A stretch of DNA of 64,000 nt from the NCBI RefSeq assembly GCF_000184745.1, contig NC_014931.1, positions 3,782,001 to 3,846,000 of the forward strand, written 5' to 3'. How positions within the stretch are numbered: position 1 is the first letter of the stretch; the number at the start of each line of letters is the position of its first letter. Origin of the DNA: Variovorax paradoxus EPS. GTDB lineage: Bacteria > Pseudomonadota > Gammaproteobacteria > Burkholderiales > Burkholderiaceae_C. Below are positions 7,579 through 43,304 of this stretch, piece by piece. Made by a program: the position numbers and the translations under genes. Below the pieces are notes generated by a model. The model did no database searches, had not been told where the DNA came from, and saw only the letters and a list, made by a program, of their open reading frames with translations.

Positions 7579-7768
7579 TGGCGGAATCGTTGTCTTGGTA
7601 GAGAAAGCGAAGGCGCCGGCAAAGGCCGGCGCACATCGACATTTTCACCCACTTGCGATGGACTGCCGAATTCCGTGGCGGAACGGCGGCCAACGCTGGT
7701 GGCGGGCTGGGAGATTTAACGGGAACTACATATATAGCAAGCCGATGCAGAAAGCCAAGTGGCCGTTC

Positions 7769-10700
7769 TCACTTCATGGTCAGTTTGAGCTCGGCGCCCG
7801 GCTTCCACTCGGCACCGCTGGCCGTGGTGCGCACCGCGCCCAGGAACAGCCGCTCGCTCGTGAGTTTCTGCGCCAGCAGGTAGTCGCGCACCGCGGCGCC
7901 GCGCTCCACGGCCAGTTGGCGCATCGATTCCTCGTCGACCGGCACGCTCGCGAACAGCAGGTTTTCCATTTCCTTGACCGGCAGGTCCTTGGCCAGCCCG
8001 ACGAGGTTGCGCGGCTTGGTGATGTCGGCGCGCTTGTACACCGCCGTCAGCAGCTCGGGGTATTCGGCGTCGGTGACCGGCGGCACCTCGGTGCCGGTTT
8101 GGCCGCCGCGCACCGCGACACGGCGCTTCTCGGCCTGGGTGAGCTGTCGCACACGCTGGCGCTGGTAGGCATCGCGCTCTTTCTCGAGGCTGGAGGTGCC
8201 GATGACCGTCATCTCCAGCGTCGGCCGCTCGGCCAGCGCCTTGGCGACCTCGTCCAGGCTTTCCTTGGCCGCCGCGCTGAGCACCGAACTGCCCGCCTCG
8301 AAGGTGATTGCGCTCGATTCGCCGCTGCCACCGCCGCCCAGGCCGCCGGTGAGCAGGCTGAACGGCGCCGTCACGGCCTTGACGATCAGGTTGACCACCG
8401 CCTTCCAGATCAGCGGTCCGACGCTGAACTGCGGATCGTTGAGCGAGCCGCTGAGCGGCAGGTCGACGTCGATCACGCCGTTGCGGTCGGCCAGCAAGGC
8501 CACAGCCAGTTTCACCGGCAGGCTGTTGGGCGCACCGGCGACCTCCTCGCCGAACTGCAGCTGGTTGAGCACCAGCTTGTTGGTGGCGGTGAGCTGGCCG
8601 TCGGGCGCGACCTTGTAGTTCACGTCCATGCTCATCTTGCCGCGCTCGATGCCGTGGCCCGCGTAGCGCACCGAGTACGGCGACAGCGGTGCGAGGTCGA
8701 GGTCGCGCATCTTGGCGGTGATGTCGAGTTCGAGCGGCTTGGCCAGCGGATTGAGCTTGCCGGTGATTTCCAGCGCGGCCGTCTGCTGCGCCTTGCCGCG
8801 CAGTTCCAGGTCGGCCAGCGCCGGGCGGCCCGTCTCGCCCTTGGGCGGGTTCGACGAGAAGGAACTGAGCTTGCCGGTCAGCTCGCTCAGGTCGGCCGAG
8901 TAGTTGGGCTTGACGAAGAGATCGGTGAAATCGATCTTGCCGTTGACCAGGCTCATCGGACCGAAGTTGATGACCGGCGTGAGGCCGGTGTCCGCCGGTG
9001 CCTGCGCCGTAGCTACCGGCGCGGCGGCCGGCTTGGCGGGTTCGGGGCTGCCGCCGACCATGGCTTCGGCCGACACCGGCGCGCCGCCGGAGCGCTGCAC
9101 AGGCGCCGCCGCGCGGGTCGTGGTGGTGGTGCCGCCCGGTCCCTTCTGGGTCTTGGCGTCGGCAGAGGCCGCAGCCGCGGCACCTTCGGCTTCGCCCTTC
9201 TTCGTCAGATTGAGCAGGTTGAGCCGGCCGGTCGGATCGACGATCACGCGGGCGAAGAAGTCGGTCAGCGTGGTTTCGCGCACGTCCACCTTCGGCGGCG
9301 TATTGGGCGCCAGGCCGACCTGCAGCCCGCGCAGGCTCAGCGTCTTCCAACTCAGGAGCTGGTTGGTGTTGCGGTCGAAACCGGGGGACTGGGTGAGCGA
9401 CACACTGTTGGCGCGGAAGTCGTCCAGTGCGGTGTCGCCAGCCAGCTTGACGGTCATGCCGGCCGGCGTGGTCGTGTAGTGGACCGTGCCGCGGTAGCTC
9501 GCGAAGGCGCGGCGGATGTCGACGTTGAGCGCGTCCGCGTAGTAGGCCTTGAAGGCGTGCGCGGGGAACGAGATCACCTCGAGCCGGCCCTCGGCGGCCA
9601 GCGGCTTGAGCACGACGTTGCCCTTGTAGTCGAACTTGCCCGGCTCGGAGCGGCCGGAGCCGATGCGGCCCGAGACCTGCAGCGGCGACACGGTGTTGGT
9701 CTCGGGCGCGATCTTCTGTGCGTTCAGCTTGAAGGCCGTGACCTCTACCGTCACCGGCAGCGCGCCGGCCTTGTCTGAATATGAGAGGCTGCCGTTGTCG
9801 ACCGCCATCGTGGCGATGGTCAGCGCCCAGGGCTTGGTGTTGGCGTCGGCCTTGGCCGATCCGGCGCCGGCCGGCTTGGGCGCCGCCACCTTCGCTTCGG
9901 CCGCGCCGCCGTTGCCGGCCGGGGTGCGCAGCCAGCGCTCGAACATCCAGCGCTTCTCGCTGTCGCGCTCCACGCGCACCTTGGGGTTGGTGGCGGTGAA
10001 CGAGGCGATGTTCAGCGTGTGCTGCGTCATGTCGACCTCGGCGTCGACCAGCTCGAAACGGCCGACGCTCGCCAGTGCGGTCTTGGTCTGGGTCAGCGCA
10101 AGCCCGTCGGCTGCCAGCCGGCGCGCCTTGAACTTGAGGTTGGGCTGGTTCCAGGCGATATCGATCTGGCCGCTGAGCTTGCCGTCGAGCGTGGGCTCCA
10201 GGCTCTGCGCCAGATACGGTGCGGCCAGCGAGAGCGGAAGCGCGTCGACCTCGGTCTGCACGTCCGCCACCTTGTCCGTGGCGCTGCCCTTGAACTTGAG
10301 CGAGGCGCCGGCAATGGCGGTGCCGCCGTTGAACTGGGCCGGCTTCTCCATTGGCCAAGTGATGGCGGTGACGTCGAGCCCCAGGTCGGTCAGGTCGACG
10401 GCGGCCGCGGGCTTGACGGTCTCGTCGCGCCAGCCAATGCGCCCGCCGCTCAGCGCCACCTTGTCGACCTGCACGTTCAGCTTGGGCTTTTCGGCCGTCT
10501 GGCCGGCCGGTGCGCTGGCTGGGGCGACGGGTAGCGGCGCCACTTTTTCCGCGGCGTCGGTGGCCGGGTCGGTCGCCATCAGGTTGAGTTGGCCCGAGGC
10601 ATCGCGCGCCACCACGAGCTGCGGATTGGCGAGCGCCACTTCGCTCAAATGGAACACCGATTCGAGCGGGCGAACATCGGCCAGCGCAAGCTTGAGCGAA

Positions 10701-11584
10701 TCGAAGCTCAGCAGGTCGCGGCCCCTGGCGTCGCTCAGCTTGGCGCCGTGCGCTTCGACCGTGCCGTAGATCTTGAGGCCGGTGGTCGTGGCCTGCTGGA
10801 AGTCGATCTTCAGGTCGGCATCGAGGCTGCCGGCCTGCAGCTTCACCGGCAATCCGCCGGGGATGTAGCCGAGGTAAGGCACGAGATCGAGCCCCTTGAA
10901 CTGCACGTGGGCGTCGGTCTTGCGGCTGGCCGAAAAGGGTGTGGTGAAGGCGGCCGAATCGAAGTTGCTGCCGTTGAGCACGAAGGCCAGCTTGGGCTCG
11001 GTCTTGACCTCGCGCTGCGAGGCCAGGTTGCTCAGGAAAGGCACGTTGAGCACGAAGTTGCGCAGCTCGTGCTTGCGCTTGACCGTCTGGTCGTCGAAGT
11101 CGACCGCGCCGTCCTTGATCGAGATGTTGTAGATCGCAAAGCGCGCCGGCTCGGCCTTGGGGTCGGGCGGCGGACCCGAGGCCAGCTTGGCCAGGATGTC
11201 GTCGATGTCGTACTTGCCGTCGGCCTGGTGCGTGAGCAGGATGGCGGGCGATTCGATCGAGACCGCATCGATCACGGGCGCCAGGCGAAAAAGCGATTGC
11301 AGTTCGGCGTCGGCGTAGATGCGCTTGATGGCCAGTTGCGGCTGCTTGCCGTCGGCAGTGGCGATGCGCAGGTCGTGCAGCGCGAGTTCGAGGGTCCAGG
11401 GCTTGAAATCGATCTTGCCCACGGTGACCTGCCGGCCCAGTTTTTCGCTCGCGATCTTTTGAAGCTGGCTCTTGGCGACGGGCGGAACCGCCAACCATGC
11501 GATGACCCAGAGGGCCAACAGAACCAGCAAGGCGACGATCCCACGTCGCATCCATTTGTTTTGTTTGAGCGAAGCTAAATCCAT
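7769..11584 (-). CDS. DUF748 (AsmA-like) envelope protein with OmpA-like C-terminus
   Basis: A 1271-residue protein starting MDLASLKQNKWMRRG, then one transmembrane helix (about 14-33, IVALLVLLALWVIAWLAV), then a long beta-rich periplasmic body of AsmA/DUF748 type (GRQVTVGKIDFKPWTLEL near the start is a hallmark). Near residue 1130 a segment FEAGSSVLSAAAKESLDEVAKAL resembles an OmpA peptidoglycan-binding domain. AsmA-like proteins are proposed bridges for phospholipid transport between membranes; that is family knowledge, not seen here. The ATG at 11584 was chosen over an in-frame start at 11701 because it places the membrane anchor at the N-terminus; the longer start would run through a terminator-like hairpin. 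Confidence 0.87.
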   Translation of the reverse strand: MDLASLKQNKWMRRGIVALLVLLALWVIAWLAVPPVAKSQLQKIASEKLGRQVTVGKIDFKPWTLELALHDLRIATADGKQPQLAIKRIYADAELQSLFRLAPVIDAVSIESPAILLTHQADGKYDIDDILAKLASGPPPDPKAEPARFAIYNISIKDGAVDFDDQTVKRKHELRNFVLNVPFLSNLASQREVKTEPKLAFVLNGSNFDSAAFTTPFSASRKTDAHVQFKGLDLVPYLGYIPGGLPVKLQAGSLDADLKIDFQQATTTGLKIYGTVEAHGAKLSDARGRDLLSFDSLKLALADVRPLESVFHLSEVALANPQLVVARDASGQLNLMATDPATDAAEKVAPLPVAPASAPAGQTAEKPKLNVQVDKVALSGGRIGWRDETVKPAAAVDLTDLGLDVTAITWPMEKPAQFNGGTAIAGASLKFKGSATDKVADVQTEVDALPLSLAAPYLAQSLEPTLDGKLSGQIDIAWNQPNLKFKARRLAADGLALTQTKTALASVGRFELVDAEVDMTQHTLNIASFTATNPKVRVERDSEKRWMFERWLRTPAGNGGAAEAKVAAPKPAGAGSAKADANTKPWALTIATMAVDNGSLSYSDKAGALPVTVEVTAFKLNAQKIAPETNTVSPLQVSGRIGSGRSEPGKFDYKGNVVLKPLAAEGRLEVISFPAHAFKAYYADALNVDIRRAFASYRGTVHYTTTPAGMTVKLAGDTALDDFRANSVSLTQSPGFDRNTNQLLSWKTLSLRGLQVGLAPNTPPKVDVRETTLTDFFARVIVDPTGRLNLLNLTKKGEAEGAAAAASADAKTQKGPGGTTTTTRAAAPVQRSGGAPVSAEAMVGGSPEPAKPAAAPVATAQAPADTGLTPVINFGPMSLVNGKIDFTDLFVKPNYSADLSELTGKLSSFSSNPPKGETGRPALADLELRGKAQQTAALEITGKLNPLAKPLELDITAKMRDLDLAPLSPYSVRYAGHGIERGKMSMDVNYKVAPDGQLTATNKLVLNQLQFGEEVAGAPNSLPVKLAVALLADRNGVIDVDLPLSGSLNDPQFSVGPLIWKAVVNLIVKAVTAPFSLLTGGLGGGGSGESSAITFEAGSSVLSAAAKESLDEVAKALAERPTLEMTVIGTSSLEKERDAYQRQRVRQLTQAEKRRVAVRGGQTGTEVPPVTDAEYPELLTAVYKRADITKPRNLVGLAKDLPVKEMENLLFASVPVDEESMRQLAVERGAAVRDYLLAQKLTSERLFLGAVRTTASGAEWKPGAELKLTMK

Positions 11585-30029: not shown

Positions 30030-30097
30030 CCGTTGTTGCCGCGCTGTCTACCCGCGCACAACAACAGCCGGGCTCCGTGCCCGCACAAGAGCGCAAG

Positions 30098-31828
30098 ATG
30101 AAATCCACCGGTCGCATCCGCTACGGGAGCAGTCCGCTGCTCGCCAGTCCCACCCCCGTCTGGCGCAGCAAGTTCATCGTGGCCAGCATCGCCTTCGGCT
30201 TCGTGCTGCTGGCCGGCCGGGCCGCCTACATCCAGGTCTTCAACCACGACTTCTTCCAGCACCAGGGCGAGGTGCGCTACCAGCGCACGCTGGAGCTGCC
30301 CGCGAACCGCGGGCGCATCCTCGACCGCAACGGACTGATCCTCGCCTCCGACATTCCGGCGCCCAGCATCTGGGCCATTCCCGAGGACATCGAGCGCGAC
30401 GATCCCGCCGTGCAGGCCAAGTTGAAGCAGGCCGCCAAGCTGCTCGGCATGCCGCAGAAGGAGTTCGACAAGAAGCTGGAGGACGAGGACAAGAGCTTCG
30501 TCTGGATCAAGCGCCAGGTCGACACCGCCATCGGCAAGCAGATCGCCGAACTCGGCATCAAGGGCATCTACCTGCGCCGCGACTACCGGCGCCAGTACCC
30601 CGAGGGCGAGGCGGCCGCGCACCTGGCGGGCTTCACCAACGTCGAAGACACGGGGCAGGAAGGCGTCGAACTGGCCTTCAACAGCGAACTGGCCGGCAAG
30701 GCGGGCTCGCGCCATGTCATCAAGGACCGCCTGGGCCACATCGTCGAGGACACCGAGGACCAGGTGCCGCCGACCGACGGCCACGACATCCAGTTGAGCA
30801 TCGACGACCGCGTGCAGTTCGTCGCCTACGAGAAGATCCGCGATGCCGTGGTCGCCAACAAGGCCCGGGCCGGCAGCGTGGTGGTGGTCGATGCGGAAAC
30901 GGGCGAACTGCTCGCCATGGCCAACTACCCGAGCTACGACCCGAACGACCGCCGCAACCTCACCGGCGAACAATTGCGCAACCGCGCGATGACCGACGTG
31001 TTCGAGCCGGGCTCGACGATGAAGCCGATCACCATCGCCACCGCGCTGCAGCTCGGCCGCGTCACGCCGCAGACCATCATCGACACGAACCCCGGTCGCA
31101 TCACCGTCACGGGCGCGACGATCCACGACGACGAGAACTTCGGCGTGCTCACGGTGCAGGGCGTGATCCAGAAATCGAGCAATGTGGGCGCCACCAAGAT
31201 CTCGCAGCGCATGACGGCGCAGGAGATGTGGAACTCGTTCACCTCGCTGGGCCTCGGCCAGAAGCCGCAGACGCCCTTCCCCGGCGCGGTGACCGGGCGC
31301 CTGCGGCCCTGGAAGTCGTGGCGGCCGATCGAGCAGGCCACCATGTCGTACGGCTACGGCCTCTCGGCGTCGCTGTTCCAGATCGCGCACGCGTACACGG
31401 CCTTCGCGCACAACGGCGAAGTCATCCCGGTGGGCCTTTTGAAAAGCACGAACACCGAGCCGCCCGGCGTGCAGGTGTTCTCGCCGCAGGTCGCGAGCGA
31501 GGTGCGCAAGATGATGCACATGGCCGCCGCGCCCGGCGGCACCGCGCCGCTCGCGCAGACCGATGGCTACTCGGTCGGCGGCAAGACCGGCACCGCGCAC
31601 AAGCAGGTCGGCAAGGGCTATGCGAGCAACAAGTACCGCGCCTGGTACACCGGCATGTCGCCGATCGACAAGCCGCGCATCATCGTCGCGGTGATGATCG
31701 ACGAGCCCGGCGCGGGCAAATACTTCGGTGGCCTCGTCGCAGCGCCGGTCTTCAGCCAGGTGGTCCAGCAGACGCTGCGCATCCTGAACGTGCTGCCGGA
31801 TCTGCCGGTGGCCTCGATGGCGCATTGA
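30098..31828 (+). CDS. Class B penicillin-binding protein (FtsI/PBP3-like transpeptidase)
   Basis: A 576-residue peptidoglycan transpeptidase anchored by one N-terminal helix (about 23-43). The N-terminal class B module has RGRILDRNGLILASDIPAPS; the transpeptidase domain carries the nucleophile Ser306 in EPGSTMKP, the KSSNVG triad near 362-367 and KTGTAHK near 494-500. It resembles FtsI (septal PBP) more than PBP2. It is outside any visible division cluster, so it is probably a second FtsI-type enzyme. ATG at 30098 is preferred to a GTG 21 bp upstream because it begins closer to the anchor; the Shine-Dalgarno region is weak for both. It ends inside an 11-bp tandem repeat. Confidence 0.88.
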   Translation: MKSTGRIRYGSSPLLASPTPVWRSKFIVASIAFGFVLLAGRAAYIQVFNHDFFQHQGEVRYQRTLELPANRGRILDRNGLILASDIPAPSIWAIPEDIERDDPAVQAKLKQAAKLLGMPQKEFDKKLEDEDKSFVWIKRQVDTAIGKQIAELGIKGIYLRRDYRRQYPEGEAAAHLAGFTNVEDTGQEGVELAFNSELAGKAGSRHVIKDRLGHIVEDTEDQVPPTDGHDIQLSIDDRVQFVAYEKIRDAVVANKARAGSVVVVDAETGELLAMANYPSYDPNDRRNLTGEQLRNRAMTDVFEPGSTMKPITIATALQLGRVTPQTIIDTNPGRITVTGATIHDDENFGVLTVQGVIQKSSNVGATKISQRMTAQEMWNSFTSLGLGQKPQTPFPGAVTGRLRPWKSWRPIEQATMSYGYGLSASLFQIAHAYTAFAHNGEVIPVGLLKSTNTEPPGVQVFSPQVASEVRKMMHMAAAPGGTAPLAQTDGYSVGGKTGTAHKQVGKGYASNKYRAWYTGMSPIDKPRIIVAVMIDEPGAGKYFGGLVAAPVFSQVVQQTLRILNVLPDLPVASMAH

Positions 31829-31901: not shown

Positions 31902-33122
31902 ATGGTCGATTTCCCTCCTGCCGTTCGCCTCGAAGACCTGACCCCGCTCCCCTACCAGCAGGCCCTGGCCGCCCACTTGCAGGCGAACGAGCCCGAAGTC
32001 TGGCGCTGGGCCGCCTCCGCCGAGGCGCGCGAGGAGCACGCCGCGGCGGTGCGCGCCGACCTGCTGCGCAATTCGTACCGGCTCGATGCCGATGCCCACC
32101 CCGAGCTGCATGCGCATTGCAACGCGGCGGTGCAGCGCCTGGGCATCACGGCGCGCGTCGCGCTCTACCAGGCGGGCGACGGCACGATGAATGCCACGCT
32201 CTACTTCCTGCCCGGCGAGGCGCACATCGTGCTCTCGGGTCCGCTCATGGAGCGACTGCAGGGCGCCGAGCTGCAGGCCGTGCTCGGTCATGAACTGGCG
32301 CACTACCTGCTGTGGGAGCGCGAGGGCGGCAAGTACCACGTGGTCGACCGCATCCTGCAGGCCGCGGCCGCCGATTCGCGCGCCGACGCGAGCCACCTGC
32401 ACGCGGCGCGCCGCTACGGCCTCTACACCGAGGCCTTTGCCGACCGCGGCGCCTGCATTGCCTGCGAGGCGCTCGAGCCCGCGGTGACCGCGCTGGTCAA
32501 GGTGCAGACGGGACTGAACCAGGTGAACGCCGCGAGCTACCTGCGGCAGGCCGACGAGATCTGCGCCGCGCCCGAACTCCAGACCCGCGGCACCAGCCAC
32601 CCCGAGGTGTTCGTGCGGGCGCGGGCACTGCGGCTGTGGACCGAGCGCCAGCCCGAGGCCGACGAATGGCTGGCCGGCGCGCTCGAAGGCCCGCTGGACA
32701 TCGCCACGCTCGACCTGCTCGGGCAGCAGCGCGCCGATGCGCTGACGCGGGAAACCATCGCTCAGTTGCTGCAGCGGCCCTTCCTTCAGTCCGATTCGCT
32801 GCTGGCCCATGCGCGCCGCTTCTTTCCGAACTTCGCGCCGCCCTCGGCGCCCTTGCCACCACCCGCCCCGGTGCCGGCCGGCGTGCACGACTACCTCGCG
32901 AGCGTGCTGGTCGATTTCGTCGCAGCCGACCCCGACCTCGATGACATCACGCTCGCCGCCGCACTCGGCCTCGCCGAAGCGATGGGTTGCGCCGCGCAGC
33001 TCGAAGAGCGCGTGGTGAAGGACATGCGCTTTCCCAAACGCAGCCTCACCCGCGTGAAGCGCGATGCGGTCACCTTGCTTGAAAAGGCAGCCGCACAACA
33101 TCTGCAAAGCGCATCCGCATGA
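31902..33122 (+). CDS. M48-type zinc metalloprotease with TerB-like C-terminal region
   Basis: A 406-residue protein without signal peptide or membrane helix, hence probably cytoplasmic, unlike HtpX/BepA. Residues about 45-215 form an M48 peptidase: HELAH at 130-134 (zinc ligands plus catalytic Glu) and a distal Glu in YTEAFADRGACIACEAL near 176. The preceding GTMNATLYFLPGEAHIVLSG is the usual Asn-rich strand before the metal site. The C-terminal part (about 320-395: SVLVDFVAADPDLDDITLAAALGLAEAMGC) looks like a TerB-type helical domain, an inference from pattern. Its stop overlaps the next gene by ATGA, so it is translationally coupled to the giant helicase. Substrate unknown. Confidence 0.8.
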   Translation: MVDFPPAVRLEDLTPLPYQQALAAHLQANEPEVWRWAASAEAREEHAAAVRADLLRNSYRLDADAHPELHAHCNAAVQRLGITARVALYQAGDGTMNATLYFLPGEAHIVLSGPLMERLQGAELQAVLGHELAHYLLWEREGGKYHVVDRILQAAAADSRADASHLHAARRYGLYTEAFADRGACIACEALEPAVTALVKVQTGLNQVNAASYLRQADEICAAPELQTRGTSHPEVFVRARALRLWTERQPEADEWLAGALEGPLDIATLDLLGQQRADALTRETIAQLLQRPFLQSDSLLAHARRFFPNFAPPSAPLPPPAPVPAGVHDYLASVLVDFVAADPDLDDITLAAALGLAEAMGCAAQLEERVVKDMRFPKRSLTRVKRDAVTLLEKAAAQHLQSASA

Positions 33123-36100
33123 ACGCCGCCATCGCTCCCCTGCTGCAACTGCTGGACACCGCCGACACCCACGGCGGCCTGCAGACCGACGACGTGCTGA
33201 GCCTCGTGCTGCCGCTGCTGCGCGAAGTCTCCGCATTGCACGAGCAAGGCAAGGTCGCCGCGCTCGGCAGCGCCTTCGCTTACCGCGTCAACGACACGCC
33301 CGCGCTTGTCCTCGCTCAGCCCGAAGGCGCCGAGCCGCGCCAGAACCGCGCAGCCATCGCACCGCTCGAAGCGCCCGCCGCCTCGGTGCTGCGCGTGGTC
33401 GGCGAACACCGCATGACGCTCGATGCCGACGAAGGCGTCTCGGTCGAGAACCTCGCGCTCATGGCCGACGCCGCGCCCGACGCGCTGCCGACGCGCCCCG
33501 TCTACCTGCCCGGCTACACCGCGTGGGAATTGCGATTCGCACATCACGACGCGCTGACCGACATCCTCTGCCTCGGCCAAGTGCTCGCCAGCCTTTCGTG
33601 CGGCCTCGACTTCACCGACAGCGAGGAACTCGGCCGCTTCGTCGCGAACCGCGCCAACCTCTTCGCGCTCAACCGCCGGCTGCATCCGGTGGTGGGCGCG
33701 GTGATCGGCGAGATGACCGCGCTCGATCGCCACGAACGCGCGCGCGACCTGCCCTCGGTGATTAGCCGGCTCGAGACCTACCGCGACCAGCCGCTGGACC
33801 TGGGCCTCGACCGCATCGCACCCGCGAAAGACGGTGCAGGCCAGCGCCGCCAGGCGATCCGCGTGCACCTGCGCGATCGCTTGTTCGATCTCTCGCGCCG
33901 CAACCGCCTGCTGCACTTCAAGCCGAGCCAGACGCATGTGAACCTCACGGTGGCGAGCGTGCCGCTGGTGGTCGACATCAAGAACATCCGCGTCGACCAG
34001 CTCTGCGTGTGGGACGGCCGCTTCGCGAGCGACATCGCCACCTGCGACCCCGTGCCGCTCGCGCGCTGGCTGCGCTTCGAAGACCAGCCCTACCTGCCGG
34101 GCGCGCTCGACCGCATCCTGCAGGAGGCGCGGCGCGACCGCTCCGAGTACGGCTTCTCGCAGCTCTCGCTGGTCATCGCGTTCCTGCGCTGGCACAACCT
34201 GAAGGAAGGGGAAGCCGAGCGGGCCGAGCGCATCGCCTCGCCGCTCCTCATGCTGTCGGTCGAGCTCACGCGCAAGAAGGGCGTGAAGGACCAGTACCTG
34301 CTCGAAGCTGCTTCGAGCGAAGCGCAGGTGAACCCGACGCTCAGACACCACCTGCGCCAGCTCTACGGCATCGTGCTGCCCGAGAGCATCGACCTGCGCG
34401 AGACCACCATCGAGCAGTTCCACGCCCAACTGGCCGCGCAGATCGCCGCGACCGAACCCGGCGTGCAACTGCGGCTGGTGAAGCAGCCTGAGATCGAGCT
34501 GATCCACCAGCGCGCCCGCCAACGGCTCGAGCAGTTCAAGCGGCGCACCCGCGTGCGCAACCCCGGCGCGCAGCCGGTGGCGGCGCAGGACTTCAGCTAT
34601 GCGAAGGACGACTTCCGCCCGCTCGGCCTGCAGCTCTTTCACAGCAAGGTGCGGCCGGTTCCGCTGACCCTGCGCGATGCGGTCGGCGCACGGCCCTTGC
34701 CGCGCGCGCCGCAGATGGCATCGACCGCCGCACAGACCGAGCAGCAGACGTATTCGTTGCACGAGAGCACCGGCAATCCGTACCAATGGGATGTCGACCT
34801 CACCTCAGTGACGCTCGGCAACTTCAACCACCGCAAGATGTCGCTGGTGCGCGACTACTCGGCACTGAGCGAATCGGAAATCGCGAGCGACGCCTTCGAC
34901 CGCGTGTTCTCGCTGCAGCCGCGCCAGGTCGATGCCGAAACGCCCGCCGCGCTACCGCTCGCCGACCAGTGGCCCGTGGTGCAAGCCGATGCCACGCAGA
35001 CCGCCGCCGTGGCGCTCGCGCGCACCGGCACCAGCTACATCATCCAGGGGCCGCCCGGCACGGGGAAGTCGCAGACCATCACCAACCTCATCGCCGACTA
35101 CGTGGGGCGCGGGCAACGGGTGCTGTTCGTCTGCGAGAAACGCGCCGCCATCGACGTGGTGTTCCACCGGTTGCGGCAGCAGGGACTGGACGAGCTGTGC
35201 TGCATGATCCACGACTCGCAGGGCGACAAGAAGGCCTTCGTGCAGAACCTCAAGAAGACCTACGAGCACTGGCTCGCGGCGCCCGAGGAACTGGATGCGG
35301 AGACCCGCGAGCGCACGCAGCTCGTCGACACGATGGATGCCGACCTCAAGGCGCTCGAACGCTTCGATGCCGCGATGCGCGATGTGCCCGAGCACCTGGC
35401 CGTGGCGGTGCGCACGCTGATGGCGCGGCTGATCGCGCTCAAGCCGCACGATCCCGCTTTGACACCGTTGCAGGCCGAGGCCCTGCCCGCTTTCGCTGCC
35501 TGGCGCAAACATGAGGACCTGGTTGCGCGCTTGCACCTCGCGGTCACCGAAAGCCTGGGCGTGCCGTATCTGTCGGCGCATGCGTTCGCGCAACTCGCGC
35601 CCGTGTTGCTGCGGCAGGAGCGGCCGCTTGCACGACTGGTCGACCTCAGTGATCGCGCGGCGGAGCAGACCGGCCCGCACCGCGATGCATTGACCGACGC
35701 CTGGCCGCCGCTGGGCGATGCGCCCACGCTCTGGGGCGACGCGCTGGCCGTGGTGGCCGATGCTCGCCGCGTGGCTGCGCTCGCGGCGCGCGGGCATCTC
35801 TCGCTGCTCGACACTGCGCACCCGGCGAGCCTCGCGTTCGGCGAAGCGATGGCGCAGCGCCGCGCGTTGCAGCAAGTCCTGAACGAAGCCGCGGCACGCA
35901 CCAGCCATTGGAAGGACAAGTTCTCGCCAGGCGACACCGAAGCCGGCCTCGCCCAGGCCAAGGCGCAGCAGGGTTCGCTGCTGCGCTGGCTCCAGCCCTC
36001 GTGGTGGCGGCTGTCGGGCGAACTCAAGCGCCGCTACGACTTCGCCAAGCATGCGGTGCGTCCGCAACCGAGCCAGGTGTTGGAAGAACTGCTGGCCGAG

Positions 36101-38296
36101 CACACGGCCCGCGCGGCGGTCGGCAAGCAGGCCGCGCAGATCGAGGCCACCTACGGTTGCAGCGACCCCGACGACTTCGTGCAGCAGCTCGATGCCCTGC
36201 GCCGTGGCGATGCCAACGGCAGCGGCGTGCGTGCAGCCTTCCACAAGCACTTGCGCACCGAGCCCGGCGCGAGCCGCAACGTCGAACGGCTGGCCGCCCT
36301 CGGCGAGCGCACCGACGCGCTCGATGCCCTGTGGCACGACCTGCTCGACGACCCGGCCGCGCAACCGCTGGGCTCCCTCGAAGCACTCGCCCGCACGCTG
36401 CGCGAACAGGCCGACACCCTGCCGACCGTGCTGCCGCACCTGCAGGAACTGGCCGATGCCGACCCGGCCCTGGCCAAGGCCCTGCGCACGCTGCCGCTCG
36501 CACCCGACGCCATCGAATACGCCGTCGCGCGCGAAGGCCTGGAGCGCGTCTACCGCACCGAGCGCTGGCTGCCGCGCTTCGACAGCGCCGCGCTCGCGCG
36601 CCATGCGCAGCGCCTGGCCGAGGGAGAGCGCAAGCTGCTCGACCGCAACGCCCGCACGCTCGCCGCCGCGGTGCGCCAGCGCTTTCGGGAGCACGTGCGC
36701 ACCAGCGCCCTCCCCGCGAGCCAGCTCGACGCTGGCGGCAAGCTCTTCAAGAAGAGCTACAACGCGGGCCGGCGCGAGCTCGAACACGAGTTCGGCAAGA
36801 CCATGCGCTACAAGGCGATCCGCGAACTCGCCTCGGGCGAGACCGGGCAAGTGGTGCGCGACATGAAGCCGATCTGGCTCATGAGCCCGCTCTCGGTGTC
36901 CGACACGCTGCCGCTCGCCGCCGACCTCTTCGACGTGGTGATCTTCGACGAGGCGAGCCAGATCCCGGTGGAAGAAGCCGTGCCCGCGCTCTACCGCGCG
37001 CCGCAGATCATCGTGGTGGGCGACGAGATGCAGCTGCCGCCGACGAGCTTCTTCTCCTCGGGCCGCGACCCCGAGGACGACACCGTCTCGGTCGAGGACG
37101 AAGGCGACCGCATCGCCGTGGTGCTCGACGCCGACAGCCTGCTGAACCAGGGCGCGCGCAACCTGCCGGCCACGCTGCTCGCCTGGCACTACCGCAGCCG
37201 CTACGAGTCGCTCATCGGCTTTTCGAACGCGGCCTTCTATGCGGGCAACCTCTTCACCATTCCGGACCGGAGCCTGCCTTCGGACGCGCGCGACGAGATC
37301 CTCGTGCAGTCGCGCGCGCCGACCGAAGAATCAGTCGCCGCGAATGTAGACACCCTGCTCTCTCGCGCCATCAGCTTCCACCGCGTGACCGATGCGGTGT
37401 ACGAGAACCGCATCAACGACGGCGAGGCGCGCCACATCGCACAGTTGGTGCGCGAGCTGCTGAAACGCGAGACCGGGCGCAGCCTGGGCATCGTCGCGTT
37501 CTCCGAAGCGCAGCAGACCGAGATCGAGGCCGAACTCGACGCGCTGGGCGCCATCGACACCGACTTCGCCGCGCGGCTGGAAGCCGAGTACGTGCGCGAG
37601 GAAGACGACCAGTTCTGCGGCCTCTTCATCAAGAACCTGGAGAACGTGCAGGGCGACGAGCGCGACATCATCATCCTGAGCATCTGCTACGGCCCGAACC
37701 CCGAGGGCCGCATGCTGATGAACTTCGGCCCGATCAACCAGCGCGGCGGCGAGAAGCGGCTCAACGTGATCTTCAGCCGCGCGCGGCATCACATGGCGGT
37801 GGTCTCGACGATTCGCCACGAGGCGATCACCAACGACCACAACGAAGGCGCCGCGGCGCTCAAGCAGTTTTTGCGGTATGCGGAGTGTCTGTCGCGCGGC
37901 GATTCGGCGACCGCGCGGCGCGTGCTCGAAAGCATGAACCCGCTCACGCGGACGAGCGGTGCGCAGCATGCCCGTGCGGACGAGGTGACGGCGCAGCTTG
38001 CGGCCGCGCTGCGTGCGCGCGGCCATGCGGTCGACGAACAGGTGGGACAGTCACGCTTTCGCTGCGACCTCGCGCTGCGGGCGCCGGAGGCCGGGCACTA
38101 CGCGCTGGGCATCCTCGTGGACACCGCGACGCACTACGAGAACCGCAACGTGCTCGAGCGCTATGTCTCGCGCCCGCGCGTGCTCGATGCGTTCGGATGG
38201 CAGGTGGTGCAGGTGCTCGCCAAGGACTGGCTGCATGCGCCGGAGGCCGTGCTCGAGCAGATCGAGTCAGCCTTGCGAACCGGCCGTTCGGGCTGA
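33119..38296 (+). CDS. DUF4011-type SF1 helicase with kinase-like N-terminus and nuclease-like C-terminus
   Basis: A 1725-residue multidomain protein. N-terminal about 1-220 ends in a kinase C-lobe-like pattern (YLPGYTAWE, then HHDALTDILCLGQVLASL), suggesting a pseudokinase. DUF4011 follows with DLSRRNRLLHF at 257-267. The SF1 helicase core has Walker A GPPGTGKS at 644-651, Walker B DEAS at 1277-1280 (IFDEASQIPVEEAVPALY), a motif III GDEMQLPP and motif V/VI segments VQGDERDIIILSICYG and RLNVIFSRARHHM. About 1610-1725 resembles the Vsr-like nuclease seen in such proteins, but the expected GIECDG is GILVDT (1664-1669). It probably acts on nucleic acid in stress or phage defence; that is inference. 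Coupled by 4-bp overlap to the M48 protease. Confidence 0.82.
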   Translation: MNAAIAPLLQLLDTADTHGGLQTDDVLSLVLPLLREVSALHEQGKVAALGSAFAYRVNDTPALVLAQPEGAEPRQNRAAIAPLEAPAASVLRVVGEHRMTLDADEGVSVENLALMADAAPDALPTRPVYLPGYTAWELRFAHHDALTDILCLGQVLASLSCGLDFTDSEELGRFVANRANLFALNRRLHPVVGAVIGEMTALDRHERARDLPSVISRLETYRDQPLDLGLDRIAPAKDGAGQRRQAIRVHLRDRLFDLSRRNRLLHFKPSQTHVNLTVASVPLVVDIKNIRVDQLCVWDGRFASDIATCDPVPLARWLRFEDQPYLPGALDRILQEARRDRSEYGFSQLSLVIAFLRWHNLKEGEAERAERIASPLLMLSVELTRKKGVKDQYLLEAASSEAQVNPTLRHHLRQLYGIVLPESIDLRETTIEQFHAQLAAQIAATEPGVQLRLVKQPEIELIHQRARQRLEQFKRRTRVRNPGAQPVAAQDFSYAKDDFRPLGLQLFHSKVRPVPLTLRDAVGARPLPRAPQMASTAAQTEQQTYSLHESTGNPYQWDVDLTSVTLGNFNHRKMSLVRDYSALSESEIASDAFDRVFSLQPRQVDAETPAALPLADQWPVVQADATQTAAVALARTGTSYIIQGPPGTGKSQTITNLIADYVGRGQRVLFVCEKRAAIDVVFHRLRQQGLDELCCMIHDSQGDKKAFVQNLKKTYEHWLAAPEELDAETRERTQLVDTMDADLKALERFDAAMRDVPEHLAVAVRTLMARLIALKPHDPALTPLQAEALPAFAAWRKHEDLVARLHLAVTESLGVPYLSAHAFAQLAPVLLRQERPLARLVDLSDRAAEQTGPHRDALTDAWPPLGDAPTLWGDALAVVADARRVAALAARGHLSLLDTAHPASLAFGEAMAQRRALQQVLNEAAARTSHWKDKFSPGDTEAGLAQAKAQQGSLLRWLQPSWWRLSGELKRRYDFAKHAVRPQPSQVLEELLAEHTARAAVGKQAAQIEATYGCSDPDDFVQQLDALRRGDANGSGVRAAFHKHLRTEPGASRNVERLAALGERTDALDALWHDLLDDPAAQPLGSLEALARTLREQADTLPTVLPHLQELADADPALAKALRTLPLAPDAIEYAVAREGLERVYRTERWLPRFDSAALARHAQRLAEGERKLLDRNARTLAAAVRQRFREHVRTSALPASQLDAGGKLFKKSYNAGRRELEHEFGKTMRYKAIRELASGETGQVVRDMKPIWLMSPLSVSDTLPLAADLFDVVIFDEASQIPVEEAVPALYRAPQIIVVGDEMQLPPTSFFSSGRDPEDDTVSVEDEGDRIAVVLDADSLLNQGARNLPATLLAWHYRSRYESLIGFSNAAFYAGNLFTIPDRSLPSDARDEILVQSRAPTEESVAANVDTLLSRAISFHRVTDAVYENRINDGEARHIAQLVRELLKRETGRSLGIVAFSEAQQTEIEAELDALGAIDTDFAARLEAEYVREEDDQFCGLFIKNLENVQGDERDIIILSICYGPNPEGRMLMNFGPINQRGGEKRLNVIFSRARHHMAVVSTIRHEAITNDHNEGAAALKQFLRYAECLSRGDSATARRVLESMNPLTRTSGAQHARADEVTAQLAAALRARGHAVDEQVGQSRFRCDLALRAPEAGHYALGILVDTATHYENRNVLERYVSRPRVLDAFGWQVVQVLAKDWLHAPEAVLEQIESALRTGRSG

Positions 38297-38343
38297 GCCT
38301 GTCGAAGCCCTGCGCAGCACTTCGACAAGCTCAGTGTGAACGG
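38284..38343. repeat. Extragenic palindromic repeat overlapping the helicase stop codon
   Basis: Two 24-bp arms, CCGTTCGGGCTGAGCC followed by TGTCGAAG, and their near-complement CTTCGACAAGCTCAGTG followed by TGAACGG, form an imperfect palindrome of 60 bp. Sequences of the type TTCGACAAGCTCAGCCCGAACGG are frequent dispersed repeats in Comamonadaceae as I know them. The left arm overlaps the last codons and TGA of the helicase gene (38294-38296), so the C-terminal Arg-Ser-Gly is repeat-encoded. Just after it, GGGGG and CCCCC (38342-38361) may form another hairpin. Confidence 0.75.
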
Positions 38344-38381: not shown

Positions 38382-38774
38382 TCAGCGCACCAGGCTCAGC
38401 CGCTTGACGTCCAGCTCGGCCTTGTTGCCGACGAGGTCCTTGTCGAACTCGCCCGTGATCTCGACGCGCACCTTGTCGTCGATCTTCACGCCGGCCGGGA
38501 AATGCTTGGCATCGATCTCCACCTTCATGCGGCCGCTGTCGTCGGCGAAGGTGTAGTGCTCGCCGCCATCGTGCGAGACGATGAAGCCGCGCAGCGTGGC
38601 GTGCTGGTCGTCCTTGCCGGTGTCCAGCAGTTGCTTGACCGTCATCGTCGGCACGGTGCTCGGGCCGGCGTACTGGGCGAAGGCGGTGGACATCGCCAGC
38701 GACATGCCGAGCGCGAGCGCGGCGGTCTTCAGGGTCTGGGTGCTCTTCGTGGTCTTGGTCTCAATCTGGGTCAT
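38382..38774 (-). CDS. YgiW/YdeI-family periplasmic OB-fold protein
   Basis: 130 residues: signal peptide (TLKTAALALGMSLAMSTAFA, cleavage after about 33) and a NirD/YgiW/YdeI OB-fold domain (TVKQLLDTGKDDQHATLRGF, YTFADDSGRMKVEIDAKHF, DKVRVEITGEFDKD). Relatives in enterics respond to envelope stress and cationic peptides. Start chosen as ATG at 38774, preceded by AGGAGG 9 bp upstream; longer starts are unsupported. It stands alone on the minus strand between the helicase and dnaE, both of different function. Its terminator may be the GGGGG/CCCCC hairpin at 38342-38361, weak. Confidence 0.87.
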   Translation of the reverse strand: MTQIETKTTKSTQTLKTAALALGMSLAMSTAFAQYAGPSTVPTMTVKQLLDTGKDDQHATLRGFIVSHDGGEHYTFADDSGRMKVEIDAKHFPAGVKIDDKVRVEITGEFDKDLVGNKAELDVKRLSLVR

Positions 38775-38869
38775 GGCAATCGTTCCTCCTTGAACGGCTT
38801 GGTTGTGAAGAAACAGATGGACGCCAGAGGCGCCCAAATGTTCCACGACCCTCGAAACCCAGGGGCCAT

Positions 38870-41800
38870 TCACTCGTAGACGATCAGCGCCTTGCCCGCC
38901 TCCGCCTGCGCCGTCCAGCTCGCGAGCGCGGCATCGGTCGGGAAGAACTTGGCGCGCTCGCCCAGCTGCAATTCGACCTGTGCGCCGCCGCGCGCCATCG
39001 ACAGGCGCACCGGCAGGCCCTGCACCAGGTCACCGACTTCCGTCTGCTCGGTGCGCGGCGGAAAGTCCTTCACCAGCCGCGCGATGTCCGGCGCCTTGCC
39101 GTTCACCGCCACGCGCAGGAACTTGCCGAAGCGGCAGCGCGCCGTGGCGAGGTCCCACACCTGCTGCACCTGGAAGCGCGCCTCGAAACCGCCGCGCGCG
39201 GGTTGCAGCCGGCCGCTCACGATGACGAGCTCGTCGTCCTTCAGCGTGTTGCGGTTGGCGTTGATGAGCGCCTCGTCGGCCGTCGCGTCGATGGACTCCG
39301 ACTTGTCGTCGAGCTTGAAGATCGCGAGCCGCCCGCGCTGGCCGTTGATCACGCGGAAGTCGCTCACGATGCCCGCGATGACCTGCTGGTCGCGGCTGTC
39401 GAGCAGGTCGCCAATCTCGCGCTTGCAGAAGCGCCGCACCTCGTGCGAGACCTCGTCGAACAGGTGGCCCGAGAGGTAGAAGCCAATGGCGGTTTTTTCG
39501 AGCGTCAGCCGCTCCTTCACGCCCCACGGTGTGGCATCGACCAGATCAGGTTCGGCCGTGGCCGAGCCGTGCTCCGCATCCCCGAAGATGTCGACCTGCG
39601 CGGCATTGGCGGCCGTCGCGCTGGCGAATTCGAAGGCGCGGTCCACCGAGGCGATCAACGCTGCGCGGTTCTGCTGGATCGCATCGAACGCGCCAGCCTT
39701 GATGAGCGCCTCGACCGTGCGCTTGTTGATGCGCTGGCGGTCGATGCGCACGCAGAAATCGAACAGGCTCTTGAACGGCCCGCCCTCTTCGCGCGCCCGC
39801 ACCACCGCCTCGACCGCGAGCTGGCCCGTGCCCTTGACGGCGCCGAGGCCGTAGCGGATCACCTTGTCGGTGACCGGCTCGAAGCGGTAGTTGCCGCGGT
39901 TCACGTCCGGCGGCTCGAAGGTGATGCCGAAGTTCTTCTGGGCGTCTTCGAACAGGAGCTTGAGCTTGTCCGTGTCGTCCATTTCCACGGTCATGTTGGC
40001 GCAGAAGAATTCGGCCGTGTAGTGGACCTTGAGCCAGCCCGTGTGATACGCGAGCAGCGAGTACGCGGCGGCGTGGGACTTGTTGAAGCCGTAGCCCGCG
40101 AACTTCTCCATCAAGTCGAAGATTTCGTCGGCCTTGTCCTGCGGGATGCCGTGCGTGGCGAGGGCGCCCGCGCGGAATTTCTCGCGGTGCTCGGCCATCT
40201 CCTCGAGCTTCTTCTTGCCCATCGCGCGGCGCAGCAAGTCGGCGCCGCCGAGCGAGTAGCCGCCCAGGATCTGCGCGGTCTGCATCACCTGCTCCTGGTA
40301 GACCATGATCCCGTAGGTCTCCGAGAGCATCTCGGCCACGGCCGGATGCGGGTACTCGACCTCTTCGCGGCCGTGCTTGCGCGCCACGAAGCTGGGAATC
40401 AGGTCCATCGGACCCGGACGGTACAGCGCGTTCAGCGCGATCAGGTCTTCCAGGCGCGTGGGCCGCGCGTCCTTCAGCATGCCCTGCATGCCGCGCGATT
40501 CGAACTGGAACACCGCTTCCGTCTTGCCTTCGGAGAAGAGCCGGTAGGTGGCCGCGTCCTTCAGCGGAATGTTCTCGAACGCGAAGTTCTCCTGGCCCTT
40601 GTGGCGCGCGACGATGAAGTCCTTGGCGATCTCCAGGATGGTGAGCGTGGCCAGGCCCAAGAAGTCGAACTTCACGAGGCCGATGGCTTCGACGTCGTCC
40701 TTGTCGTACTGGCTCACGGCCGAGTCGCTGCCCGGCTGCTGGTAGAGCGGGCAGAAATCGGTGAGCTTGCCCGGCGCAATGAGCACGCCGCCGGCGTGCA
40801 TGCCGATGTTGCGGGTCATGCCTTCGAGCTTCTGCGCGAGCTCCACCAGCATGCGCACTTCTTCTTCCTTCTCGATGCGCTGCGCGAGCTGCGGCTCCAT
40901 CTCGATGGCGTAGTTGTTCTTGTCGCCCTCGATCTTTTTCTCGGGCGGGTACTGCAGCGTGACAGACATGCCCGGCTTGTTCGGAATCAGCTTGCTGATG
41001 CCGTCGCAGAACATGTAGCTCATGTCCAGCACGCGGCCCACGTCGCGGATGGCGGCGCGCGCGGCCATCGTGCCGAAGGTGGCGATCTGGCTCACGGCAT
41101 TGCGGCCGTACTTGTCCTTCACGTAGTCGATCACGCGGTCGCGGTTGCCCTGGCAGAAGTCGATGTCGAAGTCGGGCATCGAGACGCGTTCGGGGTTCAG
41201 GAAACGTTCGAACAGCAGCTTGTATTCGAGCGGGTCGAGGTCGGTGATCTTCAGCGCATAGGCCACGAGCGAGCCCGCACCCGAGCCCCGGCCCGGGCCC
41301 ACGGGGCAGCCGTTTTCCTTGGCCCACTTGATGAAGTCGCCCACGATCAGGAAGTAGCCGGGGAAGCCCATGTTCAGGATCGTGTTGATCTCGAACTCCA
41401 GGCGCTCCACATAGCGCGGCCGCTCGGCATCGCGCTTGGCTGCGTCGGGGTAGAGATGCGCGAGGCGCACCTCCAGCCCTTCGAACGACTCTTGCCGGAA
41501 GAAGTCGTCGATCGGCATGCGCACGCCTTCGCTGACGAAGGGCGTGGGGAAGTCGGGCAGTTGCGGCTTGCCGAGCACCAGCGTCAGGTTGCAGCGCTTG
41601 GCGATTTCCACCGTGTTGGCCAGCGCACTCGGCACGTCGGCGAACAGCGCCTGCATCTCGGCGGTCGACTTGAAGTACTGCTCTTCGGTGAACTTGCGCA
41701 CGCGGCGCGGGTTGCCGAGGATTTCGCCTTCGGAAATGCAGACGCGCGCCTCGTGCGCTTCGTAGTCCTGCCGTTCAGCGAACTGCACCGGGTGCGTGGC

Positions 41801-42388
41801 GACCACCGGCAGCTTCAGCCGGGCCGCGAGCTTCACGGCGGCGATGACATGCGGCTCGTCTTCGGGACGGCCCGCGCGCTGCAGTTCGATGTAGAAGCGG
41901 TGCGGGAACATGCCCGCCAGCTTCAGCGCCAGCTCGGCCGCGCGCTCGCCCTGGCCCTGCAGCAGCGGCACGCCCAACGGCCCCGCCTGCGCGCCGGACA
42001 GCGCGATCAGCCCACCCGAAAGCTCTTCGAGCCATTCGAGCTTGCAGGCCGCCTGCGACTGGCCGCGGCCCACGTTCTGCGTCCAGGCGCGTGCCAGCAG
42101 TTCGGACAGGCTCAGGTAGCCCTCCATGTTCTGCACCAGCAGCACGAGGCGGGTGAGAACGCCGGGCTCCTTGCCCAGCCCCTCGATGAAGATTTCAGCG
42201 CCGATGACGGGCTTGACGCCCTTGCCCCGCCCCTGCTTGTAGAACTTGACCGCCCCGAACAGGTTGTTCAGGTCGGTGATGGCCAATGCGGGCTGCTTGT
42301 CGGCAGCGGCGGCCTTGATGACTTCGTCGATCCGGTTGGTGCCGTCGACGACGGAAAATTCGGTGTGCAGGCGCAGGTGAACAAACAT
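38870..42388 (-). CDS. dnaE: DNA polymerase III alpha subunit (replicative DnaE1)
   Basis: Catalytic subunit of the replicative polymerase, 1172 residues. N-terminal PHP domain begins FVHLRLHTEFSVVDG and continues ALAITDLNNLFGAVKFYK; the polymerase core has CPVGPGRGSGAGSLVAYAL, SMPDFDIDFCQGNRDRVIDY (catalytic aspartates) and GVLIAPGKLTDFCPLYQQ; helix-hairpin-helix, OB-fold (RLAIFKLDDKSESIDAT) and a C-terminal tau-binding region follow. ATG at 42388 gives the family start; a longer in-frame version would add an unlike Arg-rich leader. The gene is divergent from trhO with 124 bp between. Confidence 0.97.
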   Translation of the reverse strand: MFVHLRLHTEFSVVDGTNRIDEVIKAAAADKQPALAITDLNNLFGAVKFYKQGRGKGVKPVIGAEIFIEGLGKEPGVLTRLVLLVQNMEGYLSLSELLARAWTQNVGRGQSQAACKLEWLEELSGGLIALSGAQAGPLGVPLLQGQGERAAELALKLAGMFPHRFYIELQRAGRPEDEPHVIAAVKLAARLKLPVVATHPVQFAERQDYEAHEARVCISEGEILGNPRRVRKFTEEQYFKSTAEMQALFADVPSALANTVEIAKRCNLTLVLGKPQLPDFPTPFVSEGVRMPIDDFFRQESFEGLEVRLAHLYPDAAKRDAERPRYVERLEFEINTILNMGFPGYFLIVGDFIKWAKENGCPVGPGRGSGAGSLVAYALKITDLDPLEYKLLFERFLNPERVSMPDFDIDFCQGNRDRVIDYVKDKYGRNAVSQIATFGTMAARAAIRDVGRVLDMSYMFCDGISKLIPNKPGMSVTLQYPPEKKIEGDKNNYAIEMEPQLAQRIEKEEEVRMLVELAQKLEGMTRNIGMHAGGVLIAPGKLTDFCPLYQQPGSDSAVSQYDKDDVEAIGLVKFDFLGLATLTILEIAKDFIVARHKGQENFAFENIPLKDAATYRLFSEGKTEAVFQFESRGMQGMLKDARPTRLEDLIALNALYRPGPMDLIPSFVARKHGREEVEYPHPAVAEMLSETYGIMVYQEQVMQTAQILGGYSLGGADLLRRAMGKKKLEEMAEHREKFRAGALATHGIPQDKADEIFDLMEKFAGYGFNKSHAAAYSLLAYHTGWLKVHYTAEFFCANMTVEMDDTDKLKLLFEDAQKNFGITFEPPDVNRGNYRFEPVTDKVIRYGLGAVKGTGQLAVEAVVRAREEGGPFKSLFDFCVRIDRQRINKRTVEALIKAGAFDAIQQNRAALIASVDRAFEFASATAANAAQVDIFGDAEHGSATAEPDLVDATPWGVKERLTLEKTAIGFYLSGHLFDEVSHEVRRFCKREIGDLLDSRDQQVIAGIVSDFRVINGQRGRLAIFKLDDKSESIDATADEALINANRNTLKDDELVIVSGRLQPARGGFEARFQVQQVWDLATARCRFGKFLRVAVNGKAPDIARLVKDFPPRTEQTEVGDLVQGLPVRLSMARGGAQVELQLGERAKFFPTDAALASWTAQAEAGKALIVYE

Positions 42389-42498
42389 CCCGCCATTGTA
42401 GAAACCGGCACCTTCACGATGTGGGTTGGCAATCCCTAAATCGCCCCGCCGGCAAGGGAAAGACCGCGGCGGCCCGCATCCGGCCCGGCGGCGCCACC

Positions 42499-42504
42499 TA
42501 GAAT
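42499..42504 (+). promoter_or_regulatory. -10 box immediately before the trhO start codon
   Basis: TAGAAT ends 8 bp before the GTG start of trhO, so transcription should begin at or within about two bases of the start codon. No Shine-Dalgarno sequence fits between. This points to a leaderless mRNA. No clear -35 box is seen. Confidence 0.45.
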
Positions 42505-42512
42505 CGCGCCCC

Positions 42513-43304
42513 GTGCAAGAGATCCTGAACATCGCGGCCTACAAATTCGTGGCCATCCACGACAGCCCCGAGCTGCGTGAAGACCTGCGCGCCCGCACCC
42601 AGGCGCTGGGCCTCATGGGCACCATCCTGCTGGCGCCCGAAGGTATCAACCTGTTTCTGGCGGGCACTGCCGACGCCATCCACACCTTCCTTGCCGACCT
42701 GCGCGCCGATGCCCGCTTCGCCGACCTGGAGACCAAGGAAAGCTGGTCCGAAACGCAGCCATTCCGGCGCATGCTGGTGAAGCTCAAGCGCGAGATCATC
42801 CGCATGGACCATCCCGCCATCCAGCCGGCCGCCGGCCGCGCGCCCGGCGTCGACGCCCTCACCCTCAAGCGCTGGCTCGACCAGGGCCACGACGACGAAG
42901 GCCGCGAGATCGCATTGCTCGACACGCGCAACGACTTCGAAGTCGACGAAGGCACCTTCGACGGCGCAATCGACTGGCGCATCACCAAGTTCACCGAATT
43001 CCCGCCCGCGCTCAAAGCGCATCGCGCCGATTTCGAAGGCAAGACCGTGGTGAGTTTCTGCACCGGCGGCATCCGCTGCGAGAAGGCCGCGATCCTGATG
43101 CGCGAAGAAGGTGTGGAGCACGTGCTGCAGCTCGAAGGCGGCATCCTCAAATACTTCGAGGAAGTCGGCGGCGCGCACTACCACGGCGATTGCTTCGTGT
43201 TCGACGGCCGGCGCGCATTGGCGCCCGACCTGAGCGCACGCGCGGCCGATGCCAGCGCGCGTGCGTCGGAAGACATCGACCTGGGCCGCGGCCTGAAGAA
43301 ATAA
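42513..43304 (+). CDS. trhO: tRNA uridine(34) hydroxylase, rhodanese-like
   Basis: Catalyses oxygen-dependent hydroxylation of U34 in certain tRNAs to ho5U. 263 residues: N-terminal acylphosphatase-like domain (about 5-95; [16 protein letters not shown]) and rhodanese domain (about 120-225) with the active-site loop [11 protein letters not shown], Cys183 as the catalytic residue. Start is GTG at 42513, the family N-terminus ([13 protein letters not shown]) after this codon. It is divergent from dnaE and seems to be transcribed from a -10 box right at the start codon. The two-component genes follow by 33 bp but belong to a different function. Confidence 0.93.

Follow-up and report, generated by a model that had tools for sequence, protein, structure and literature searches.

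A recurrent pairing of an M48-family metalloprotease with a giant DUF4011 helicase in Variovorax paradoxus EPS and other bacteria

A 64 kb stretch of the Variovorax paradoxus EPS genome (the window), part of a single contig of 6.55 Mb, carries two overlapping genes on the forward strand. One encodes a 406-aa zinc metalloprotease of the M48 family (31902..33122, +) and the other a giant 1725-aa helicase of the DUF4011/UPF1-like superfamily 1 (SF1) type (33119..38296, +), with the four shared bases of an ATGA stop/start overlap between them (33119..33122, +). Coordinates, lengths and overlap agree with an initial annotation of this DNA, made from the sequence alone. We are nearly certain that the protease and the helicase are one functional system. 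Moreover, as the motor and protease sites are constrained and the nuclease site of the large protein is not, the protease, rather than the nuclease, is its likely output.

The relation between the two genes was followed in a genome-contig scan with six M48 sequences, which returned at least 64 loci, several of them in metagenome-assembled genomes (MAGs); the counts refer to the matches listed, are no census, and include six Variovorax loci that overlap with the genus survey described below. Among the 40 strongest M48 loci (L117-L156, E up to 9e-52), 39 are followed on the same strand by a helicase homologue, and at the fortieth (L140) the contig ends at the M48 gene. No more than about 65 bases separate the M48 stop codon from the helicase start in 38 of these 39 loci, and a 4-nt overlap, ATGA or GTGA, is present in 25 of the 39. 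By record title the strong loci span seven phyla, with Variovorax (6), Pseudomonas (6), Stenotrophomonas, Lysobacter, Massilia, Cupriavidus, Erythrobacter, Qipengyuania, Rhodomicrobium, a Rhodobacteraceae MAG, Verrucomicrobia, Planctomycetes, Lentisphaerales, Oceanobacillus, Flavobacteriales and Actinobacteria among the names. Protein distances of the M48 proteases and the helicases are correlated over 23 loci (r 0.94, Spearman 0.72), some of which shared descent alone would give.

Further down the same scan, M48 protease and helicase are encoded in one open reading frame (ORF) in nine of the next ten loci (L157-L164, L166), and a survey of class genomes added two more such fusions (L088, 1953 aa; L096, 1896 aa), making 11 fused loci overall. 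The weak M48 matches of L165 and L167-L180 had no helicase match beside them, and neither did 7 of the 11 non-self M48 matches of the class survey (L089-L095, E 9e-16 to 9e-10); we read these relatives as other M48 proteins. The initial annotation had taken the gene pair for a single functional system and had staked this on co-occurrence of the two genes in other genomes. Co-occurrence was found, in all 39 testable strong loci, and the fusions, the recurring stop/start overlap and the correlated divergence point the same way. Some loci depart from the common layout. In L138, a Pirellulaceae MAG, the helicase lies ~0.87 kb from the M48 gene, with an ORF between them (10219-11045) that by eye resembles a small nucleotidyltransferase. 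Two Variovorax loci (L005 and L007, from the same genomes as L117 and L118) have ~60 extra bases between the genes and no ATGA overlap, and the helicase of L087, L139 and L144 appears as two ORFs, through either broken genes or assembly errors.

Both genes are real, since Variovorax orthologues differ far more by synonymous than by non-synonymous changes. Over the five closest comparisons the non-synonymous rate (dN) was 0.017-0.033 and the synonymous rate (dS) 0.23-0.37 (dN/dS ~0.07-0.12), and three more distant comparisons of the M48 gene gave dN 0.11-0.18 and dS 0.45-0.58 (dN/dS 0.24-0.33). Together with the 39/39 co-location, these ratios rule out a chance overlap of ORFs. The nearest named orthologous loci are those of Variovorax (V. 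boronicumulans, 97%).

The large protein ends in an MTES_1575 (PD-(D/E)XK-like) restriction-endonuclease fold at residues 1626-1719 (37994..38275, +; PF18741, 64.3 bits, cut-off 38.2). Its active site was compared across 27 near-full-length paired helicases (those of the window, L086 and 25 genome-contig loci), nine of the 11 fused ones (L159 and L162 being left out) and 20 comparison helicases of our own choosing, drawn from 18 of 31 non-carrier genomes with a non-orthologous match and from second matches in two carriers. No M48 match was present in the fetched pieces around these 20 loci. The Glu of the IExD motif, which we take to be the catalytic residue of the family, is present in 20/20 comparison helicases vs 0/27 paired and 0/9 fused ones. 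The window protein has L1666 at this position, and Leu is likewise the usual residue in paired (L 23, Q 2, F 1, M 1) and fused (L 8, M 1) helicases. The preceding Asp, D1650, is kept in 26 of 27 paired and in only four of nine fused proteins, and D1668 in all 27 paired ones. Because the IExD Glu is missing in 36 of 36 M48-linked helicases, the C-terminal domain is likely no working nuclease, and as judged from its sequence it is very probably not catalytically normal in this group. The Vsr-like tail of the initial annotation is retained as a fold, and a working nuclease as the default reading was dropped. Two of the comparison loci lie in carrier genomes that have the M48-helicase pair elsewhere.

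The protease active site shows the opposite pattern. Residues H130, E131, H134, E177 and D181 are invariant in the 32 aligned M48 sequences, the window's included, with the first three lying in the HELAH zinc/catalytic motif (residues 130-134; 32289..32303, +). Assignment to the M48 family follows from a score of 38.3 bits for Peptidase_M48 (PF01435; cut-off 20.3), the HExxH motif and the downstream Glu. The protein also just passes the SprT-like model (PF10263) with 27.5 bits against a cut-off of 25.6; the relative L123 scores 12.1 bits, below the cut-off, and at E up to 1 neither L146 nor any of three fused proteins shows a SprT-like match. Its C-terminal region, about residues 329-375 (32886..33026, +), weakly resembles TerB. 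Pfam gave no TerB match (PF05099) in the window protease, and the likeness appears better in the sequences of three fused relatives (21.5, 16.7 and 12.6 bits; E 3e-4, 0.009 and 0.17), all below the cut-off of 24.4. An hhalign comparison gave 28% for the tail vs 0.6% or less for three controls. The TerB-like tail proposed earlier thus keeps weak sequence support without reaching the family cut-off.

In the helicase, the DUF4011 region (33884..34354, +) includes LFDLSRRNRLLHF at residues 256-268 and the best Pfam stretch at 326-412 (PF13195, 56.6 bits, cut-off 22.2). Next comes the SF1 helicase core, which a long insert divides, at about residues 600-1600 (34916..37918, +), with motif I (GPPGTGKS, residues 644-651; 35048..35071, +) and motif II (DEAS, residues 1277-1280; 36947..36958, +). 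These two motifs, like HELAH in the protease, stand where the initial annotation had placed them. AAA_11 and AAA_12 are over their Pfam cut-offs, and with PF13195, Walker A and DEAS they identify a DUF4011/UPF1-like SF1 helicase. Motifs I (Walker A) and II (DEAS) are present in 27/27 paired helicases, again counting the window's, and in 9/9 fused ones; motif VI, searched with one simple pattern, was found in 25/27 paired, 9/9 fused and 11/20 comparison helicases. The best PDB sequence matches of the window helicase are SMUBP-2, SEN1 and UPF1/NAM7. A C-terminal WGR domain was detected by single-sequence phmmer (E 1e-3) in 16 of 27 paired helicases and in none of the nine fused or 20 comparison ones; by the same search it is absent from the window helicase. 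PF05406 matches L123, a Pseudomonas copy, at 5e-19.

The N-terminus of the helicase, about residues 16-235 (33164..33823, +), resembles a protein kinase C-lobe, with no N-lobe, no DFG and no HRD at the catalytic-loop position. It contains the signatures LHExGxVA, PGYxxWE, LGHHDxxTDIFxLG and RxxDL. Pfam gave no kinase match in the window helicase. At E up to 10, a profile of this region retrieved 29 PDB sequences. Of these, 28 belong to protein kinases, few of them distinct (AMPK, PLK1, PpkA, MAPK13, STK16), and none is significant alone, the best E being 0.02. Against 12 bacterial kinases, hhalign gave 76.8% in the expected register, vs 0.1-0.4% for four controls. In 321 class genomes a profile of this N-terminus matched four at E 1e-6 or better, three of them carriers of paired M48; the fourth match (E 1.1e-7) lies outside the family, in an ORF read by eye as a Ser/Thr kinase with HRD and DFG. 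We conclude from these sequence comparisons that the region is a kinase C-lobe relic, the resemblance noted in the initial annotation being real but remote. Kinase activity is unlikely, as DFG is absent from 27/27 paired N-termini and the HRD found in four of the 27 is away from the catalytic-loop position. None of the nine fused or 20 comparison helicases matches the kinase-like profile. All three folds assigned earlier to the outer regions, kinase-, TerB- and nuclease-like, have some sequence support, that for TerB being weak.

A tree of the helicase core, from which the two long branches L166 and L113 were left out for support values and the approximately unbiased (AU) test, places the paired, fused and nearer comparison groups in one clade each (99/96, 99/97 and 96/100, respectively). 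Paired and fused helicases as a single clade are neither supported nor rejected (AU p 0.117), so the association with M48 and the loss of the Glu arose once or twice.

The nearest named full-length families of the window helicase are the anti-phage proteins ProA and Hhe. With ProA (NF058533; PADLOC PDC-S37) it shares DUF4011, the split SF1 helicase and MTES_1575, scoring 684.2 bits against NF058533 (best stretch 555-1720, under the 1500-bit cut-off) and 696 bits against PDC-S37. Hhe (NF042953, DUF4011 domain-containing anti-phage protein) belongs to the same helicase superfamily with the same domain types, and here the window helicase reaches 474 bits, far under the 2000-bit cut-off. Membership of either family was rejected, the scores being below both cut-offs and the IExD Glu being lost. 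NCBIfam scoring of four comparison loci put two over the ProA cut-off, one nearest to Hhe and one more distant. The two ProA-level proteins (L097, 2171 bits; L103, 2339 bits) keep the Glu, unlike the window helicase, and the 15-16 kb fetched around each of them gave no M48 match; the Hhe-like L108 (1458 bits, itself under the cut-off) also keeps the Glu and has no M48 in its piece. On the protease side, an M48-family metallopeptidase is reported from the anti-phage RRDM defence island, linked there to type I restriction-modification and DarTG (PMC12255303), a parallel to the window protease at the level of the family. The HExxH zincin core is shared with SprT/SPRTN/Wss1-type proteases as well, although the window protease scores higher for M48 and its scanned relatives do not keep the SprT match. 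Neither an M48-DUF4011 helicase pair nor the source paper for ProA was found in the open-licence PMC literature among the matches listed.

Within Variovorax the pair is patchily distributed at a single site. In 150 genomes (the own genome and relatives), 18 had a strong M48 match, the own included, and the same 18 had a strong helicase match; the pair is present in 18 of about 91 same-genus genomes. M48 identity in the carriers other than the own genome is 73-98%, with one partial match at a contig end; weak M48 matches only were obtained in seven further genomes, two of the same genus (E 7e-6 to 7e-4), and were not counted. The pair lies between tolA (or a penicillin-binding protein gene) and dnaE in 17 of the 18 carriers, with the BOF gene where detected, and in the remaining one (G079) it falls on two contigs, which are in agreement on the dnaE side. 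Among the fetched same-genus non-carriers, 19 of 20 have tolA within ~2.4 kb of dnaE with no pair between, and the other (L068) has no tolA in its fetched piece. After L046 and L068 were dropped for missing markers, a tree with 16 carriers and 19 non-carriers requires five presence changes, four of them forced by well-supported branches. At this site no penicillin-binding protein gene was detected between tolA and M48 in L048, L049 and L051, as in several non-carriers, and L047 and L050 have ~4.4 kb extra between that gene and M48.

The neighbourhoods of 23 loci were scanned through 115 of their 130 proteins; the counts describe these neighbourhoods only. Neighbour Pfam families, among the 25 of 83 listed, are mainly metabolic, transport and signalling ones. 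PADLOC matches at 1e-15, among the 25 of 35 families listed, comprise mad3 in four proteins, mad8 in two, and single-member matches to type I S subunit models, HEC-09, TnsB and mad5; mad8 may be generic, as its model also matched the window helicase. The available flanks show no mutual match among six Pseudomonas copies but do match within close Erythrobacter/Qipengyuania, Flavobacteriales and Kribbella pairs; the unit thus moves occasionally. Near the Pseudomonas copy L123, TniB-like and Mu-transposase-C proteins at 4798-8308 indicate a possible Tn7-like carrier. A large DUF4011 gene and a small conserved gene are reported to make up the right flank of core defence hotspot 1 of P. aeruginosa (PMC10250203).

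Taken together, these data lead us tentatively to favour a translationally coupled two-protein complex with the helicase as sensor and the M48 protease as output, an arrangement that we find possible and only slightly short of probable. The giant protein, with its UPF1-like SF1 motor, DUF4011, kinase C-lobe relic and, often in relatives, WGR, would bind to, and move along, aberrant nucleic acid (for instance ends, gaps or intermediates of foreign replication), and the domain that was once a nuclease would be inactive and now serve for binding or docking. The protease would be held inactive or directed by the helicase and, once the helicase fires, would cut host or invader proteins. The complex itself, its gating, its substrate and its part in defence against phage or in a genome-integrity response are all inferred. 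The helicase HamB of Hachiman is reported to restrain the nuclease HamA until DNA damage is met (PMC12278908). The Variovorax pair may follow the same two-part logic of effector and helicase sensor, with a protease replacing the nuclease, a proposed mechanistic parallel in which M48 protease and HamA are likened by their logic. The initial annotation had suggested that the protease might gate nucleic-acid surveillance; the likelier direction is the reverse, and a helicase that gates the protease seems, from the sequences, a little better than an even prospect.

Several observations weigh against such a sensor-protease complex with a part in defence. One lost Glu is no proof of lost nuclease activity, and the lack of the kinase-like N-terminus in all nine fused helicases means that this domain is not essential to the M48 link. 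Few of the 115 neighbouring proteins match defence models, and the Variovorax site is fixed, between cell-wall and replication genes. Searches with M48 by tblastn matched none of 72,556 plasmid or 50,697 phage records, and in viral_contigs 0 of 58 M48 pattern matches were confirmed. The helicase N-terminus likewise matched 0 plasmids; the whole window helicase matched 418 plasmid records, all at <60% identity and none covering 80%, and one of the ten plasmid rows listed for it is annotated Hhe. The defence-island setting suggested by the initial annotation is weakened by the few defence-model neighbours and by the lack of any copy in the plasmid searches, and a typical mobile defence island is not favoured.

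The main rival is the repair of protein-bound DNA, with roughly even odds between it and immunity or genome integrity. In its specific form, which we consider rather unlikely, the helicase moves up to a protein stuck on DNA (a crosslink, a covalent relaxase or a phage terminal protein), which the M48/SprT-like protease then degrades; this would be housekeeping clearance of DNA-protein crosslinks or nucleoprotein and not immunity. SPRTN and Wss1 digest DNA-stuck proteins in eukaryotes. The SprT-like score of the window protease, the single fixed chromosomal site in Variovorax and the WGR domain of 16 of the 27 paired helicases, suited to DNA-end binding, are in line with clearance, and a helicase plus protease with a dead nuclease suits repair as well as it does defence. 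However, the SprT score is not kept up in the scanned relatives, and the patchy spread, with its five changes on the tree, is unusual for core repair.

Gene order and overlap would also favour co-translational assembly of a protease that acts as a processing or regulatory factor (activation, release or turnover) of the large protein, itself the effector. Some residual metal binding by the nuclease-like domain is conceivable, given how widely D1668 and D1650 are kept in paired helicases, but the fusions hold both domains in one reading frame and the Glu is missing in every M48-linked helicase, so we regard this account as improbable. Least probable of all is an RNA-directed stress system, with mRNA or stalled ribosomes as targets of the UPF1-like helicase and nascent or associated proteins as substrates of the protease. 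The best PDB matches, SMUBP-2, SEN1 and UPF1/NAM7, act on RNA or on both nucleic acids, which suits this idea; the PD-(D/E)XK-like fold and WGR domains are DNA-associated, however, and the closest named relatives are anti-phage proteins.

The boundaries of the system are given by a penicillin-binding protein gene upstream, after tolQRA (30077..31828, +), and a BOF-family gene downstream (38382..38873, -), beyond which lies dnaE (38870-42532, -); all three are outside the system. No transmembrane-like stretch was found in either protein with 19-residue hydropathy windows (maximum mean 1.48 for the protease and 1.58 for the helicase). A repetitive extragenic palindrome (REP)-like sequence at 38294-38341, with arms judged by eye and one mismatch, adjoins the helicase stop codon and was not listed by a repeat search with 9-base seeds. 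Its 15-mer CTTCGACAAGCTCAG has 172 copies in the genome vs 0 for the backward-read control. Outside the window, CTTCGACAAGCTCAG occurs seven times on the minus strand with 115-base spacing (G000:C1:595792-596534), forming a tandem REP-like array.

To our knowledge, the helicase-based defence proteins described in bacteria, Hachiman among them, are generally held to finish with a nuclease or some other step that damages nucleic acid. In all the M48-linked helicases tested, which by record title come from several phyla, the nuclease looks dead, and the partner protease is strictly conserved; this points to proteolysis as what a nucleic-acid sensor sets off. It is conceivable, though we hold it to be doubtful, that the pair represents an undescribed helicase-gated protease system of immunity or genome integrity, built as pair and as fusion, perhaps twice independently, with an inactivated nuclease and an M48 output directed at proteins on foreign or broken DNA. 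If true, this would link DNA surveillance to proteolysis in bacteria, in a compact and testable two-gene system whose active-site mutants are defined beforehand.

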